From NCBI GenBank assembly GCA_013822345.1, contig PNKH01000048.1:1-53721 (forward strand): DNA of 53,721 bases. The letters run 5' to 3'. The notes under the pieces are model-generated. The model did not search any database, was not told where the DNA came from, and saw nothing but the letters and a program-made list of their open reading frames with translations. The position numbers and the translations under genes are program-made. Shown in pieces: positions 12,040 to 19,097 of this stretch. Each line of letters starts with the position of its first letter. The stretch's first letter is position 1. The stretch comes from Isosphaera sp. Lineage in GTDB: Bacteria; Planctomycetota; Planctomycetia; Gemmatales; Gemmataceae.

Positions 12040-12161
12040 AGCGCGGAACGCGGAGTGCGGAGCGCGGAACGAAAGACCGCTGTCGCCCGTCGCGCCTCGC
12101 GATAGCCTACACCCATCGGTTGTATTCCCCGCTCCGCGTTCCGCACTCCGCGTTCCGCGCT
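12040..12161. repeat. Phrase repeat, inverted pair between two divergent start codons
   Basis: Blocks at 12040-12071 and 12131-12161 are built on GCGGAACGCGGAGTGCGG. The outer 21 bases (12040-12060 and 12141-12161) are perfect complements. The left end is six bases from the ATG of the SDR gene and the right end touches the ATG of the phosphoesterase, so the element occupies both leaders. Confidence 0.88.
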
Positions 12162-13067
12162 ATGGCCGTCCGCCTCGCCCACTTCTCCGACCTGCACCTG
12201 TCCGCCCGGCCGCTCGGGTGGGCGGTCCGGGACGTGTTCGGGAAGCGGGCGACCGGGTGGGTGAACCTGACGTTCCTCGGCCGGGCGGCCCGGTTCCGCC
12301 ACGCCCCGACCGTGGCCGCGGCGCTCCGCCGCGACCTGGCGGGCCGCGGGTTCGACCACCTCGTCTTCTCCGGCGACGCGACCATGATGGGGTTCGCGTC
12401 GGAGACGGCGGCGGCGGCCGCGGCGCTCGGGGTGGGGGACCCGGCGGTGCCGCCGGGGACGGCGGTGCCGGGGAACCACGACGTGTACGTCGCCCGGGCG
12501 GAGCGGGGGCGGGTGTTCGAGGCGGCGTTCGCGGCGTGGCAGGCGGGGGAGCGGGTCGGCGGCGAGCCGTACCCGTTCGCCCGGAAGGTCGGCCACCTGT
12601 GGCTGATCGCGGTGAACTCGTCGCGGTCGGTCCCGTGGCCGTGGGACGCGAGCGGGCGGGTCGGGGAGGCGCAACTGGGGCGGCTCCGGGAGCTGACCGC
12701 GAGGCTCGACCCCGGCCCGCGGGTGGTGGTGACGCACTACCCGATCCTGACGGCGAACCGGAAGCCGGAGCCGCACTTCCGCCGGCTGCGGGACTGGGAC
12801 CGGGTGCGGGACGTGGCGGCGGAGTGCGGGGTCGGGCTGTGGCTGCACGGGCACCGGCACGGGTGGTACGTGCTGCCGGCCGGGCCGGACCTGCCGTTCC
12901 CGTGCGTCTGCGCCGGCAGCTCGACGCAGACGCGGCGGTGGGGGTATCACGAGTACGTGATCGACGGGTGGAAGCTGGCCGGGCTGCGGCGGGTGTACGA
13001 CCCGGAGGCCGGGGCGTTCGCCGACGCCGACCGGTTCGCGCTGGAACTGGCCGGCAACGGCGCTTGA
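12162..13067 (+). CDS. Metallophosphoesterase
   Basis: A 301-residue calcineurin-like phosphoesterase with a two-metal active site. The ligands lie in HFSDLHLS (residues 7-14), FSGDATMMG, PGNHDVY, VTHYP and HGHRHGW, in the usual order. The second motif has Ala-Thr after GD where many relatives have Leu-Thr. There is no signal peptide, so it acts in the cytoplasm; the substrate is not predictable. The start codon directly follows a repeat arm and has no ribosome binding site, but it is the right place for the family N-terminus (MAVRLAHFSDLH). Confidence 0.88.
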   Translation: MAVRLAHFSDLHLSARPLGWAVRDVFGKRATGWVNLTFLGRAARFRHAPTVAAALRRDLAGRGFDHLVFSGDATMMGFASETAAAAAALGVGDPAVPPGTAVPGNHDVYVARAERGRVFEAAFAAWQAGERVGGEPYPFARKVGHLWLIAVNSSRSVPWPWDASGRVGEAQLGRLRELTARLDPGPRVVVTHYPILTANRKPEPHFRRLRDWDRVRDVAAECGVGLWLHGHRHGWYVLPAGPDLPFPCVCAGSSTQTRRWGYHEYVIDGWKLAGLRRVYDPEAGAFADADRFALELAGNGA

Positions 13068-13207
13068 ACCGCGGCACCACCCGGGCTACAACCTCACCCA
13101 ACCGATGCGGGCTCGTTCAGCTCGTCGCTCCGCGACAGGACGATGTTGCGTCGTCCGAGAGCATGGCTTGCCGCGCGACCCGGGGAAGGCTGTTCCAGGA
13201 CCGCTTC

Positions 13208-13292
13208 CGCCACCTGGTGGAATTCTTCTTCGCGGGCCTGGGACAACCCCGCCGGTCGTGGTTCCCGCGAAGAAGAATTCCACCAGGTGGCG
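13208..13292. repeat. 29-bp perfect inverted repeat
   Basis: Arms at 13208-13236 and 13264-13292 (CGCCACCTGGTGGAATTC...) are perfect complements with a 27-base loop; the arm itself holds the palindrome CCACCTGGTGG and an EcoRI-like GAATTC. It occupies part of the 340-base gene-free space 13068-13407. The rest of that space (13068-13207 and 13293-13344) shows no gene. Confidence 0.88.
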
Positions 13293-13344
13293 GCGGTCCC
13301 GTGAGCCTTCCGCGTCACAGGTCCGGTAGTGGACGCGCCCGGGT

Positions 13345-13391
13345 CGGTTAACCGGAACGCCCCGAGACGGTTGTCTCGGGGCTTTCGGTTT
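13345..13391 (+). terminator. Rho-independent terminator or leader hairpin before the selenoprotein gene
   Basis: GCCCCGAGAC at 13359-13368 pairs with GTCTCGGGGC at 13373-13382 around the loop GGTT, followed by TTTCGGTTTT. Outer bases AACCGGA and TTCGGTT extend the stem. It ends only a few bases before the AGGAGG of the gene at 13408, so it either ends upstream transcription or acts as an attenuator for that gene. Confidence 0.7.
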
Positions 13392-13407
13392 TCCCAGGAG
13401 GACGGCA

Positions 13408-13758
13408 ATGGTGAAGCGGATCGACTGGATGTACCACCGCAAGGGGTGAGTGACGTGCCAGAAGGCCCAGGGGTTCCTTGGGCAGGGCGCGGTGGCGGTG
13501 GCCGAGACGGTGGACGCGACGAAGGTGCGGTACGCGGCGGCGGACGCCCTGAAGTTGCTCGACGGGGTCGCGACGCTGGTCGCAGCGAAGGGGAAGCGGC
13601 TGGAGGTGTTCGACCTGAAGACCGCCAAGCCGGACGACGCGGTGCTGCTGGCGCACCTGCTCGGCCCGACCGGGAACCTGCGGGCGCCGACGGCCCGGGT
13701 CGGGGCGGTGCTGGTGGTCGGGTTCGGCGAGGAGGCGTACCGGCGGGCGCTGGGGTGA
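13408..13758 (+). CDS. ArsC-like thioredoxin-fold protein, probable selenoprotein (in-frame TGA = Sec14)
   Basis: Read from the ATG at 13408, the frame has one internal TGA at 13447-13449 and then stays open to 13758, giving 116 residues with residue 14 as selenocysteine. The start is strong: AGGAGG lies six bases upstream. The TGA falls exactly at the first position of a redox motif: RKG-U-VTC-QKA, i.e. UxxC at residues 14-17, where relatives would have CxxC. A hairpin with a GTT/GGTTC loop follows at 13465-13483. Downstream features fit the ArsC/thioredoxin fold, with LRAPTARVG as the cis-proline region. From memory, an 'ArsC family (seleno)protein' group exists in planctomycetes. The alternative, that only a 102-residue protein from GTG 13450 is made, would lack the first strand and half the active site and has no usable ribosome binding site. 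Confidence 0.83.
13447..13483 (+). promoter_or_regulatory. Candidate bacterial SECIS element
   Basis: After the TGA (13447-13449), bases 13465-13472 pair with 13476-13483 (GCCCAGGG with CCTTGGGC, one G-T wobble), leaving the loop GTT. The loop G is 23 bases after the TGA. Bacterial SECIS hairpins lie in the coding region directly after the UGA, with a G-U containing apical loop at about this distance. The match is by eye and has not been scored. Confidence 0.55.
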
Positions 13759-13765
13759 CCCGTGC

Positions 13766-13829
13766 GGACGAGCCCGCAGCGCGAACAAGGGCGTGTGGGC
13801 CTGCCCTTGCTCGCGCTGCGGGCTCGTCC
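13766..13829. repeat. 27-bp inverted repeat between convergent genes
   Basis: Arms at 13766-13792 and 13803-13829 (GGACGAGCCCGCAGCGCGA...) pair with a single G-T type mismatch and a ten-base loop. It fills the gap between the selenoprotein candidate and metG, whose stops face each other, and could act as a two-way terminator. Confidence 0.85.
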
Positions 13830-13833
13830 CATC

Positions 13834-15393
13834 TCACCCGAGCCGCGGGAACAACGGCCTCGGCTTGCCATCGACCAACTCGGCCGTCACCCGCAGGTCG
13901 GCGGCCGGCACCTCGGGCGAGGCGGCGTCGGCGTACCGCACGTCGGCCCACGGCTTGGCGAACGAGAGGGCGGCGTACACCGTCTCGGCCGACCGCGGGA
14001 TGAACGGCTTGAGGAGAATGCTCGCCGCCCGCAGCGGCTCGGTCAGGTTGAACAGGATGCGGCTGGCCGCGGCCGGGTCGGTCTTCACCACCGTGAACGG
14101 CTTGGTCTCGTCCACGTACTTGTTGGCCGGGTAGAGCACCTTCTGCATGACGGCCGCCAGGGCCTGGTTGTACCGACAGTTCTCGACGTGCCCCCGCACC
14201 TCGTCCACCAGGGCCGCCGGGTCGAACCCCGCCGCCACCGGCTCCGGGGGCCGCCCGGCCGTGCCCGGGAGCACCCCGCCGAGGCTCTTGGCCGCCACCG
14301 TCACCACCCGGCTGAGCAGGTTCCCGTAGGTGTTCCCGAGGTCGGTCGTGTACACCTCCTCGTACCGCTGCCCGCTGTAGTCCCCGTCCGACGGGTACGG
14401 GCACTCCCGGAGGAAGAAGTACCGGTAGGCGTCCGCGTTCGACCGGGCGATGATCTCCATCGGGTCGACGATGTTCCCGAGGGTCTTCCCCATCTTCTGG
14501 CCGTTGTTGTTCACGAACCCGTGGCTGAACACCTTCCGCGGCGCCTCCTCCCCGGCCGCCCACAGCATCGCCGGCCACAGCGCGCAGTGGAACCGCGTGA
14601 TGTCCTTGCCGATGAAGTGGGTGTCCGCCGGCCAGTACCTCCGGAACGTCGCCTCGTCGTCCCCGTACCCGATCCCGGTGATGTACGTCAGCAGGGCGTC
14701 GAACCAGACGTAGATGGTGAACTCCGGGTCGAACGGGACGCGGATGCCCCAGTCCTCCCCGGTCCGCGAGATGTTCACGTCCCGCAGGCCCTCCGTCTCG
14801 ATCAGCGAGATCATCTCGTTCCGCCGCGACTCCGGCTGGATGAAGTCCGGGTTCGCCTTGTAGTGTGCCAGGAGCCGGTCCTGGAACGCCGACAGCTTGA
14901 ACAGGTAGCACGGCTCCGCCCGGCGGACGAGCGGGCGCCGGTGCGTCGGGCAGTTCCCGGCGTTCTCGGTGTGGACCTTGTCGCTCTTGAACTCCTCGCA
15001 CCCGTCGCAGTACCAGCCCTCGTAGCTCCCCTTCTCGATGTACCCGTTGTCGTACACCTTCTGGATGAACTTCCGGCAACACGCCTTGTGCCGCTCGCTG
15101 CTCGTCTGGATGAAGGTGTCGTAGCTGATGTCGAGGGCGTCCCACACCTCGCGGAACTGCCGGGCCATGCCGTCGCAGTACGCCTGGGTGTCCTGGCCCA
15201 GCTCGGCCGCCCGCTTGCTCACCTTCACCGTGTTCTCGTCGTTCCCCATCAGGAAGAAGACGGCGTACCCCTCCATCCGCCGGTACCGGGCCTGGACGTC
15301 GGCCCCCACCTTCTCGAACGCCGTCCCGATGTGCGGGCGACTGTTCGGGTAGTCGATGGCGGTCGTCTGGAACCACTTCGGCTGGTCGGGCAC
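13834..15393 (-). CDS. metG: Methionyl-tRNA synthetase
   Basis: The 519-residue class I synthetase charges tRNA-Met. The HIGH signature reads HIGT at residues 21-24 and the KMSKS signature reads KMGKT near residue 300. A zinc knuckle of the one-metal type is visible (CDGCEEF ... CPTHRRPL). The anticodon-binding domain follows, and there is no C-terminal tRNA-binding/dimerisation domain, as in the short form of the enzyme. The start is the GTG at 15393, preceded by AAGGAGG; the frame is open well upstream, but that is a shadow of the next gene. Confidence 0.93.
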   Translation of the reverse strand: MPDQPKWFQTTAIDYPNSRPHIGTAFEKVGADVQARYRRMEGYAVFFLMGNDENTVKVSKRAAELGQDTQAYCDGMARQFREVWDALDISYDTFIQTSSERHKACCRKFIQKVYDNGYIEKGSYEGWYCDGCEEFKSDKVHTENAGNCPTHRRPLVRRAEPCYLFKLSAFQDRLLAHYKANPDFIQPESRRNEMISLIETEGLRDVNISRTGEDWGIRVPFDPEFTIYVWFDALLTYITGIGYGDDEATFRRYWPADTHFIGKDITRFHCALWPAMLWAAGEEAPRKVFSHGFVNNNGQKMGKTLGNIVDPMEIIARSNADAYRYFFLRECPYPSDGDYSGQRYEEVYTTDLGNTYGNLLSRVVTVAAKSLGGVLPGTAGRPPEPVAAGFDPAALVDEVRGHVENCRYNQALAAVMQKVLYPANKYVDETKPFTVVKTDPAAASRILFNLTEPLRAASILLKPFIPRSAETVYAALSFAKPWADVRYADAASPEVPAADLRVTAELVDGKPRPLFPRLG

Positions 15394-15506
15394 GGGCTCC
15401 TCCTTGCGGGGCGGGCCGCCCCGAGTCTTCTTTAGCAGAGGTCCGGGGGGCGGGCGAGGTTCGGGCACGGGAGGTGCGGAATCGACCCCGGCCGGCCGCC
15501 GCGGGC

Positions 15507-15512
15507 TATAAT
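15507..15512 (+). promoter_or_regulatory. Candidate -10 element
   Basis: A perfect TATAAT stands in GC-rich surroundings 57 bases before the GTG start at 15569. No good -35 match is seen 16-18 bases upstream, so this may be a promoter that depends on an activator or another sigma factor. Confidence 0.35.
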
Positions 15513-15568
15513 CGCGGTGACGGCTCGCACCGTCGTATCCGCACGTCATTTCGCCCGGAGTCCATCCC

Positions 15569-16660
15569 GTGTCCCACCCTCCCCCCCGCCGGCGTGCGTT
15601 CACGCTCATCGAACTGCTCGTGGTCGTCGCCATCATCGCCGTGCTCGTCGGCCTGCTGCTCCCGGCCGTCCAGAAGACCCGGGAGGCGGCCGCCCGGGCC
15701 AAGTGCCAGAACAACCTCCACCAGCTCGGCGTCGCCCTGCACCACTACCACGACGCGAACGGGTTCCTGGTCTTCAGCCGCGGCCCGACCCAGCCCCGGC
15801 AGGCGAGCGGGGCGGCCCACCGCCGCAACTCCGACCCGCGCGGGAACGAGGACACGATCAGCGGGCTGGTGTACCTCCTCCCGTACCTCGAGCAGGGGCC
15901 CCTGTTCGACCAGATCAGCGGCGGCACCTTCATGGACGGGACGGTCCCGATCCTGCCGTTCGGCATGCCCCGGGACTTCGCCCAGCAGTACCCGCCGTGG
16001 CAGGCCCGGGTCCCGCTGTTCGAGTGCCCGTCGTCCCCGCGGAGCCCGGAGTACCCGGACCGCCGGCCGTACAACGGGCGGCGGAACTACGTCCTGAGCT
16101 TCGGCGACCGGATCCAGAACAACCACACCTCGACCGCCCACCGCGGGGCGTTCGGGTTCAACTCCCGGACCCGCATCACCGACATCACCGACGGCACGAG
16201 CAACACCGTCCTGATGAGCGAGCAGGGCGGGAACGCCGACGCCGCCGACTTCCACGGGCTGGCGGCGAACAACCGGAGCGGGATGAACACCAACCCGAGC
16301 AGCTGCCTGGCCACGGTGACGAGCGGCCGGTACACGGTGCCGGTCATGTCGGCCCGGCCGATGACCTCGCTGTGGCACAGCGGGCTGGCGTCCCACGTCG
16401 GGTTCAACACCGTGCTCCCGCCGAACAGCCCGAACTGCATCAACGAGAACTGGGGCGACGGGTGGGGGCTGATGAGCGCCACCAGCTACCACGCCGGCGG
16501 GGTGAACGTGCTGCTCGGGGACGGGAGCGCCCGGTTCGTCCCGAACGGGATCGATGTCGGGAACTCGTCCGCCCCCGAGCCGGCGACCGGGCCGAGCCCG
16601 TACGGCGTCTGGGGCGCCCTGGGCACCCGCGCCGGCGGGGAGACGGTCGGCAGCTATTGA
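15569..16660 (+). CDS. DUF1559 pseudopilin-like protein
   Basis: A 363-residue DUF1559 protein. The N-terminus [29 protein letters not shown] (quoted in parts: [22 protein letters not shown]) is a type IV pilin-like signal: processing would occur before Phe, leaving a membrane helix. The exported domain has the family features KCQNNLHQLGVALHHYHD and, near the C-terminus, NVLLGDGSARFVPNGID. Such proteins are thought to be part of, or attached to, the planctomycete cell envelope; their exact role is unknown. The start is a GTG with GGAG upstream. A small lipoprotein gene follows on the same strand, a pairing also seen in reverse order at 21732-23240. Confidence 0.88.
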   Translation: MSHPPPRRRAFTLIELLVVVAIIAVLVGLLLPAVQKTREAAARAKCQNNLHQLGVALHHYHDANGFLVFSRGPTQPRQASGAAHRRNSDPRGNEDTISGLVYLLPYLEQGPLFDQISGGTFMDGTVPILPFGMPRDFAQQYPPWQARVPLFECPSSPRSPEYPDRRPYNGRRNYVLSFGDRIQNNHTSTAHRGAFGFNSRTRITDITDGTSNTVLMSEQGGNADAADFHGLAANNRSGMNTNPSSCLATVTSGRYTVPVMSARPMTSLWHSGLASHVGFNTVLPPNSPNCINENWGDGWGLMSATSYHAGGVNVLLGDGSARFVPNGIDVGNSSAPEPATGPSPYGVWGALGTRAGGETVGSY

Positions 16661-17876: not shown

Positions 17877-19097
17877 TCATCCGACCCCCCCTGCCTCCGG
17901 CTGCCAGAACCCGGCCCACGAGTCCCCGAACAGCGGGCGGAGGCCGGCCTGCTCGCCCGGGGAGATCGGGTTGCCGCGCAGGTCGACCCGCACGCACCCC
18001 CGGCCGCGGCCCCACCCGGCCAGCCGCTCCGCCCCCCGGGCGGTGATCCGATTGTACCCGAGGTACAGGACGTGCAGCTTCGGGTGCCGACCGTCCGCCG
18101 CGGCCAGGGCGGCGGCCGCGTCGCCCGTCAACCCGTTGGCGACCAGGTACAGCACCTCGAGCTTCTCCGACAGGGCCCCGGACATCAGGGTGCGGACGCC
18201 GGCGTCGGTCACCCCGGTCGCGCTCAGGTCGAGCTCCCACAGGGTCGCCGGGAGCGGGCGGGCGGCCAGCACCGCCGCCCCGGCGTCCCCGAGCGGGTTG
18301 CCGCCCAGCCACAGCCGGCGGACCCGGTCCACCAGCCGCGACCGGAGGAGGACGCCCAGCCCGGCGGCCGTCAGGCCGTTCGCCGTCAGGTCGAGGACCG
18401 AACGGATCGGGTCCTCGTGGAGCCGGGGGAACCGGCCGGCGTCGGCGGCCGCGGCCAGGGCCGCCGCCCCGGCGTCCCCGACCCGGCCGCCGGCGAGGAG
18501 GAGGGTTTCGAGCCGCACCAGGGTCGGGTTGTCGGCCAGCGCCGCGGCCCCGCCCGGGCCGATCTCGCTCGGCCGGGACGCGTAGTGCCCAGGGTACTCC
18601 GGCCGGCCCTGACCGAGGTCGAGTTCCCGGACCGTCCGGAAGTGCGGCAGCCGGAGGACGCCGGTCGTCCGCGGGGTGAGCCGGGCGAACCGGACGTACC
18701 GGGCCGGGGTGAGGGAGAACGCCCGGGCGGCGTGGTCGGCGAACGCCCGGGCGGTCGGGAACTCGGCGTCGTCGTAGAACCCGCGGTCGTACCGGCCCGG
18801 CCAGTCCGGGTGCGGCCACTTCACCCGCGGGACGGCCCGGAGCGGGACGACCCACTCGCGCCAGTGGTCCCGGACCAACTCCTCGACCCGGTCGTACAGC
18901 CCGGACCAGCGCGGGCCGGCGGATGTCCCGATCGTGGCCTGCATCTCGACCATCGACCGGATGAACTCGGCCCGGGCCGGCCGGTCGTGCTCGTCCAGCC
19001 AGTCGGCGTAGGCGAGCCGCGGGGTGTCCTCGTCCGGGTCGGCGCACACCGCGGCCAGCAGCGCCGCCTCCTCCGCCGGCAGCGGCGCGGCGCTCAC
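17877..19097 (-). CDS. TIGR02996 domain plus leucine-rich repeats
   Basis: A 406-residue protein with an N-terminal TIGR02996 domain (AAVCADPDEDTPRLAYADWL, RAEFIRSMVEMQ) and several ribonuclease-inhibitor-type leucine-rich repeats: VRELDLGQG, LETLLLAGGRVGDAGAAAL, VRRLWLGGNPLGDAGAAVL, LWELDLSATGVTDAGVRTL, LEVLYLVANGL, LHVLYLGYNRI and VRVDLRGNPIS. This is a protein-binding scaffold; the target is unknown. Its GTG start overlaps the stop of the upstream nuclease gene (GTGA), so the two are translationally coupled. Confidence 0.85.
   Translation of the reverse strand: MSAAPLPAEEAALLAAVCADPDEDTPRLAYADWLDEHDRPARAEFIRSMVEMQATIGTSAGPRWSGLYDRVEELVRDHWREWVVPLRAVPRVKWPHPDWPGRYDRGFYDDAEFPTARAFADHAARAFSLTPARYVRFARLTPRTTGVLRLPHFRTVRELDLGQGRPEYPGHYASRPSEIGPGGAAALADNPTLVRLETLLLAGGRVGDAGAAALAAAADAGRFPRLHEDPIRSVLDLTANGLTAAGLGVLLRSRLVDRVRRLWLGGNPLGDAGAAVLAARPLPATLWELDLSATGVTDAGVRTLMSGALSEKLEVLYLVANGLTGDAAAALAAADGRHPKLHVLYLGYNRITARGAERLAGWGRGRGCVRVDLRGNPISPGEQAGLRPLFGDSWAGFWQPEAGGVG

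Follow-up and report, generated by a model that had tools for sequence, protein, structure and literature searches.

The window, i.e. the whole stretch of 53,721 nucleotides that was analysed, carries on its forward strand a gene whose reading frame passes through an internal TGA codon (Table 1). From ATG 13408 the frame runs for 13 codons to TGA 13447-13449, continues for 102 sense codons and ends at a second TGA (13756-13758). When the first TGA is translated as selenocysteine (Sec), the motif RKG-U-VTC reads U14-V-T-C17, a UxxC redox motif. The original prediction, made from the letters of the window, had described this layout of an AGGAGG, an ATG, 13 codons, an in-frame TGA and 102 sense codons, and the sequence agrees with it in every part.

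Table 1. Features of the putative selenoprotein gene in the window.
Feature	Position	Strand	Basis
Shine-Dalgarno motif AGGAGG	13396..13401	+	sequence; six bases 5' of ATG 13408
Putative ArsC-like selenoprotein gene, 116 residues, Sec at 14, TGA stop included	13408..13758	+	NF041106, 137.3 bits
In-frame TGA, predicted selenocysteine codon, residue 14, first position of UxxC	13447..13449	+	homologue column
Cys17, likely resolving cysteine of UxxC	13456..13458	+	at least 90% conserved
Predicted bacterial SECIS hairpin, stem 13465-13472 with 13476-13483, loop GUU 13473-13475	13465..13483	+	folding, covariation
Arg92-Ala93-Pro94 conserved loop	13681..13689	+	R92 and A93 at least 90% conserved, P94 invariant (76 aligned members)

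No conserved operon was found among 180 loci, whose flanks range from about 0.1 to 3 kb and are mostly short. The commonest neighbour cluster lies upstream at 17 of these loci and resembles by eye the window ORF 12120-13067, which is read as a metallophosphoesterase. Also upstream of the gene is a perfect 30-nt inverted repeat (13207-13236 and 13264-13293, with a 27-base loop); a 23-base pattern from its arm has no other copy in the window. A terminator-like hairpin (13350-13391, 19-nt arms, 84%) is located just before the ribosome binding site of the gene, which may need its own promoter, or may be regulated by this hairpin. Seven bases past the stop codon starts a 27-nt inverted repeat (13766-13792 and 13803-13829, 96% complementary), possibly a terminator shared with the convergent minus-strand ORF 13834-15714 on its other side. 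Elsewhere on the minus strand are a match to the Rfam whalefall-1 RNA (RF01762, 47797-47853; 38 bits, gathering score 37) and a tRNA-His (gtg) called by ARAGORN at 18251-18339, which is overlapped by long ORFs and is probably false.

The product matches the NCBIfam model NF041106, "ArsC family (seleno)protein" (ArsC_rel_Se_1), along its full length (model positions 1-107 of 107) and well above the curated cut-off of 85 bits, with UxxC at the N-terminal redox site. Matches above this cut-off were found in 80 of the 392 genomes of a phylum sample and in 82 of 95 genomes of the bacterial family to which the window belongs (f1). As the protein family is catalogued as NF041106 and appears in a review table, the gene belongs to a known family and is no new discovery, and it looks like an ordinary member, with nothing found to set it apart. 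Annotation pipelines that do not handle Sec would overlook or shorten such a gene.

An ArsC-like fold had been proposed for the product, and both the sequence profile and the predicted model place it with ArsC and Spx. The Pfam ArsC model is matched weakly (17.7 bits, cut-off 24), with weak signals also from the TIGR01617, YruB and PF03960 models. A profile of 76 relatives searched against the PDB retrieves SACOL0876 (2m46), Spx and YffB, with E-values of 9.5e-11 to 5.9e-7. The predicted structure has a mean pLDDT of 90.3; its best Z score against ArsC-related, Spx and glutaredoxin-like chains is 9.0, on a scale where 8-9 is little above background, and Foldseek gives one match with E below 0.001, at a TM-score of about 0.54, i.e. 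a moderate fold match.

ArsC binds arsenate via an Arg that precedes a conserved Pro. In the window protein this residue is Ala93, which aligns with the Arg before the conserved Pro of Spx and 2m46, aligned partners that are not proven ArsC. Because Ala precedes the conserved Pro where Spx has Arg, we use "arsenate reductase" as a fold label only. It is unlikely that the product is a true arsenate reductase with Sec in the role of the catalytic Cys: the fold does resemble that of the Vibrio cholerae arsenate reductase 3f0i (Z 8.0), and the available parts of two reviews (PMC13188914 and PMC9312934) label the family "Arsenate reductase-like", but TIGR00014, the model of arsenate reductase ArsC, is absent from the NCBIfam matches up to an E-value of 1, and at least 90% of the 76 aligned members share the Ala, in a place where ArsC needs an Arg. 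Somewhat less likely again is an Spx-like redox-sensing transcription regulator that uses Sec and Cys as a switch. Spx chains rank high in the matches by sequence and by fold, and they have CxxC at the same place; however, the Arg of Spx is again replaced by Ala, and the Spx regulator model TIGR01617 scores 18.6 bits, far below its cut-off of 75.05. The product is most likely a small UxxC thiol/selenol oxidoreductase of the ArsC/Spx/YffB fold, and homology makes thiol/selenol redox catalysis its probable activity.

The column of residue 14 was read in the above-cut-off loci of both surveys, nine weaker loci and 18 named loci, two of them from Zixiibacteriota. The named loci partly repeat surveyed genomes, so distinct sequences are quoted, i.e. 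distinct downstream sequences scoring above 100 on a model built in this analysis; counts of 148 and 60 are by locus, and among the 148 Sec-type loci some are the same genome reached by two routes. The 159 distinct relatives have TGA in 126 cases, Cys in 31, Asp in one and Ser in one. The in-frame TGA thus aligns with Cys in homologues, as expected of a TGA at the first Cys position of a CxxC motif, where the original prediction had put it, and 157 of the 159 carry one or the other. The Asp belongs to a paralogue; its genome (G045) encodes a pair, L083 with Asp and L097 with TGA at the Sec position. The Ser is found in L207, a cut-off match that lies close to the end of a contig and starts at the motif (model position 11). 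Exceptions to Cys17 are Ser in L017 and Val in L211.

It is very improbable that the TGA is a true stop, whether of a pseudogene, through a sequencing error, or with the real start at GTG 13450. This GTG directly follows the TGA and has AAGGGG three bases upstream, so the earlier claim that it lacks a usable ribosome binding site rests on spacing; that it is not the true start is better founded, given that a start codon at residue 15 occurs in only 18 of 148 Sec-type loci and a Shine-Dalgarno-like motif before that residue in only four of 148. Such a motif precedes the start of the full-length frame at 106 of 147 Sec-type loci. A true stop is also at odds with the TGA in the same column of 126 of the 159 homologues, and with W7, Y9 and R11 ahead of it, each at least 90% conserved in an alignment (A1) that draws 76 rows from the 181 loci scoring above 100. 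Since the TGA and its frame are conserved among homologues, the agreement of start, frame and motif is more than chance, as had been argued from the window alone. Conservation is the ground on which three readings were rejected, namely a true stop or pseudogene, translation from GTG 13450 and an altered genetic code.

The genome of the window (7.47 Mb in 226 contigs, 95.2% complete) encodes selA (553.7 bits), selB (365 bits), selD (384 bits) and selC, the tRNA-Sec (79.6 bits), each above its cut-off; the search for these four genes had been proposed as a check on the selenoprotein call. ARAGORN identifies this tRNA-Sec as tRNA-SeC with anticodon TCA, and a second match to the tRNA-Sec model, just above the cut-off at 47.6 bits, is a tRNA-Ser. 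In the phylum sample a selB match is present in the genomes of 68 of 70 TGA loci vs. two of ten Cys loci (cross-table read by eye, selB E-value cut-off 1e-70). Seven of the phylum-sample Cys genomes lacking selB have no detectable tRNA-Sec or selA either, and the eighth (G268) has both. Within f1, selB is found in 53 of 60 TGA genomes and in 18 of 21 Cys genomes, six split matches included, and with selB in 18 of 21 the Cys forms of f1 are mostly not due to loss of SelB.

Nine TGA genomes without selB were found, seven in f1 and two (G225 and G302) in the phylum sample. Eight of them are less than 90% complete (65-68% for G405 and G416), the other being G458 at 92%, and seven keep tRNA-Sec or selA; in G302 (79% complete) and G473 (88%) no selB, tRNA-Sec or selA was found. 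A selB search at a looser E-value gave nothing above the family cut-off in G225, G302 and G268. A candidate case of TGA use without SelB, in four of six near relatives (G400, G401, G403, G411, G415 and G417), was rejected when the looser search found selB in all six; the absence was an artefact, as the 1e-70 cut-off had lost split matches. Joined, these reach 345-372 bits in five of the relatives, while in G400 the two pieces, of 217 and 141 bits, stay separate. The SelB of these relatives (L213-L218) matches the model in at least two pieces, in separate frames in G400, and the sequences suggest an insertion after the first domain. The least probable reading of the window gene is that its TGA is decoded as another amino acid, e.g. 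Trp, through suppression or an altered code: nothing direct speaks for it apart from the nine genomes without selB, two of which also lack tRNA-Sec and selA, and against it are the incompleteness of eight of these nine, the Sec genes retained in seven, the four sel genes in the window's own genome, the use of TGA as the stop of this very gene, and Cys in 31 of the 33 homologues without TGA, with Trp in none.

A bacterial SECIS element is a hairpin located close behind the TGA, and its apical loop opens with a G. In the window, bases +16 to +23 from the TGA pair with +27 to +34 around the loop GUU at +24 to +26, i.e. 23 bases from TGA to loop, just as the original prediction had placed a hairpin with a G-U loop. 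For the 54 bases from the TGA the folding energy is -26.4 kcal/mol (z -2.89), which none of 200 shuffles equals. When this GC-rich stretch is recoded synonymously, 626 of 5000 variants are as stable or more so, and only six of 5000 form all eight pairs; energy measured against synonymous recoding is a weak test, and covariation is the useful one.

By covariation, the pairing is kept in Sec-containing relatives of f1; it is decayed in those with Cys. Of 43 f1 Sec sequences (those identical to named loci omitted), 37 form at least seven of the eight pairs, vs. none of 21 f1 Cys sequences. In the 54 f1 Sec sequences used for the covariation test (52 distinct rows), 90.9% of cells are paired and four of the eight pairs show changes on both sides, chiefly pair +18/+32 (UA 27, CG 17, GC 4). 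Covariation is scored at 0.239; none of 500 shuffles gets this high, and no slid register exceeds 0.138. Taken alone, the tally of doubly changed pairs is less striking, with 23 of 500 shuffles matching it, and further pair types show no excess, as 491 of 500 shuffles have at least as many. Sec sequences from outside f1 form at least seven of the eight pairs in this register in only 22 of 83 cases. Many of the remaining sequences fold other hairpins at neighbouring places, on which basis the hairpin seems to have drifted across the phylum.

With the read-through of the TGA, the family membership, the Sec machinery of the genome and the conserved hairpin all computed directly, the gene very probably encodes a selenoprotein with SECIS-directed recoding of UGA and a redox product of the ArsC/Spx/YffB-type thioredoxin fold. 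The call made from the window is favoured alike by the homologue column, the sel genes and the hairpin; compensatory pairing in f1 Sec members and its loss in Cys relatives identify the hairpin as a bacterial SECIS. Sec would almost certainly be inserted at TGA 13447-13449 in vivo, a step for which the evidence is genomic. SelB with Sec-tRNA(Sec) would recode the UGA, aided by the SECIS loop downstream. Judged by homologous CxxC proteins with this fold, the selenolate of Sec14 could then attack an oxidised substrate, i.e. a disulfide, a peroxide or another oxyanion, after which Cys17 would resolve the selenenyl-sulfide and cellular thiols would regenerate the enzyme.

The hairpin also appears to largely fix the protein sequence that it overlaps. 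In f1 Sec members, residues 20-25 follow A-Q-G/E-F-L-E/G; Phe occupies residue 23 and Leu residue 24 in 60 of 60 loci, and codon 24 is CTT in 55 of 60, a rare Leu codon that accounts for one of 245 Leu codons in eight window ORFs taken for genes. Third-position differences from the window gene amount to 0.21 in codons 20-25 of Sec loci vs. 0.63 in codons 26-39. Most f1 Cys members have neither these residues nor CTT. Their residue 23 is Tyr in eight, Phe in six and His, Ser and Trp in two each (the five commonest among 21 loci), and residue 24 is Leu in ten, Arg in eight, Met in two and Phe in one. L153, with the Cys codon TGT, keeps six of the eight hairpin pairs, the GUU loop and CTT, and to judge from these remnants looks like a recent convert from Sec to Cys.

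Beyond the catalogued family, the interest of this gene is in repeated Sec/Cys switches, mostly with selB retained. A quick tree was built from 81 f1 proteins and three from other families, with the residues of Sec and the SECIS excluded and L207 left out. The Sec/Cys label requires at least 13 changes by parsimony on the f1 protein tree, vs. 18.9 with shuffled labels; 13 is a soft figure, as many forks are unresolved with 103 columns for 84 rows, and the direction of the changes was not inferred. Starred branches alone force five changes. The proposal that the protein repeatedly swaps Sec and Cys within f1 while the Sec machinery is kept is evenly balanced between holding and failing. If it is true, the replacement of Sec by Cys would have two drivers, loss of the machinery and also relief from the SECIS constraint. 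The natural Sec/Cys pairs among close relatives, L149/L176 and L186/L196, each together on starred branches, could show what an ArsC-like redox protein gains from Sec, and how far an RNA signal within a coding region dictates protein sequence.

Our literature searches, which were not worded for that question, found no paper on Sec/Cys switching in the NF041106 family, and a search for NF041106 found no mention beyond a 2026 review (PMC13188914). The part of that review available to us has the entry "Arsenate reductase-like protein, NF041106, UxxC", for which it refers to the Global Ocean Sampling paper (its reference 61), and gives TIGR00014 in its table for a separate UxxS arsenate reductase. 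Excerpts of PMC9312934 list an arsenate reductase-like protein with UxxC, and those of PMC1794560 list ArsC-like selenoproteins. Selenoproteins are reported in two planctomycetes in passages of PMC4807772, where ArsC is not mentioned and the sole "arsc" string is an author's name.

Compared with known systems, the window protein is closest to the "Arsenate reductase-like protein, UxxC" of the two reviews (PMC13188914 and PMC9312934, as excerpted), with which it shares UxxC and the full-length match to the same model. Arsenate reductase 2 of the Global Ocean Sampling selenoproteome (PMC2398784; table row "Arsenate reductase 2, cd03032, UxxC", with the figures 42, 21 and 238, in the part available) is likewise a UxxC ArsC-like selenoprotein, but one of marine metagenome sequences, and is likened to the window gene by description and not letter by letter. 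Spx, YffB and SACOL0876, ArsC-like proteins with CxxC, have the fold and the motif position in common with the window protein (Z 7-9, at the E-values given above). They differ from it in having Cys where it has Sec, and in the conserved loop Spx and SACOL0876 carry Arg-Pro where the window protein carries Ala-Pro.
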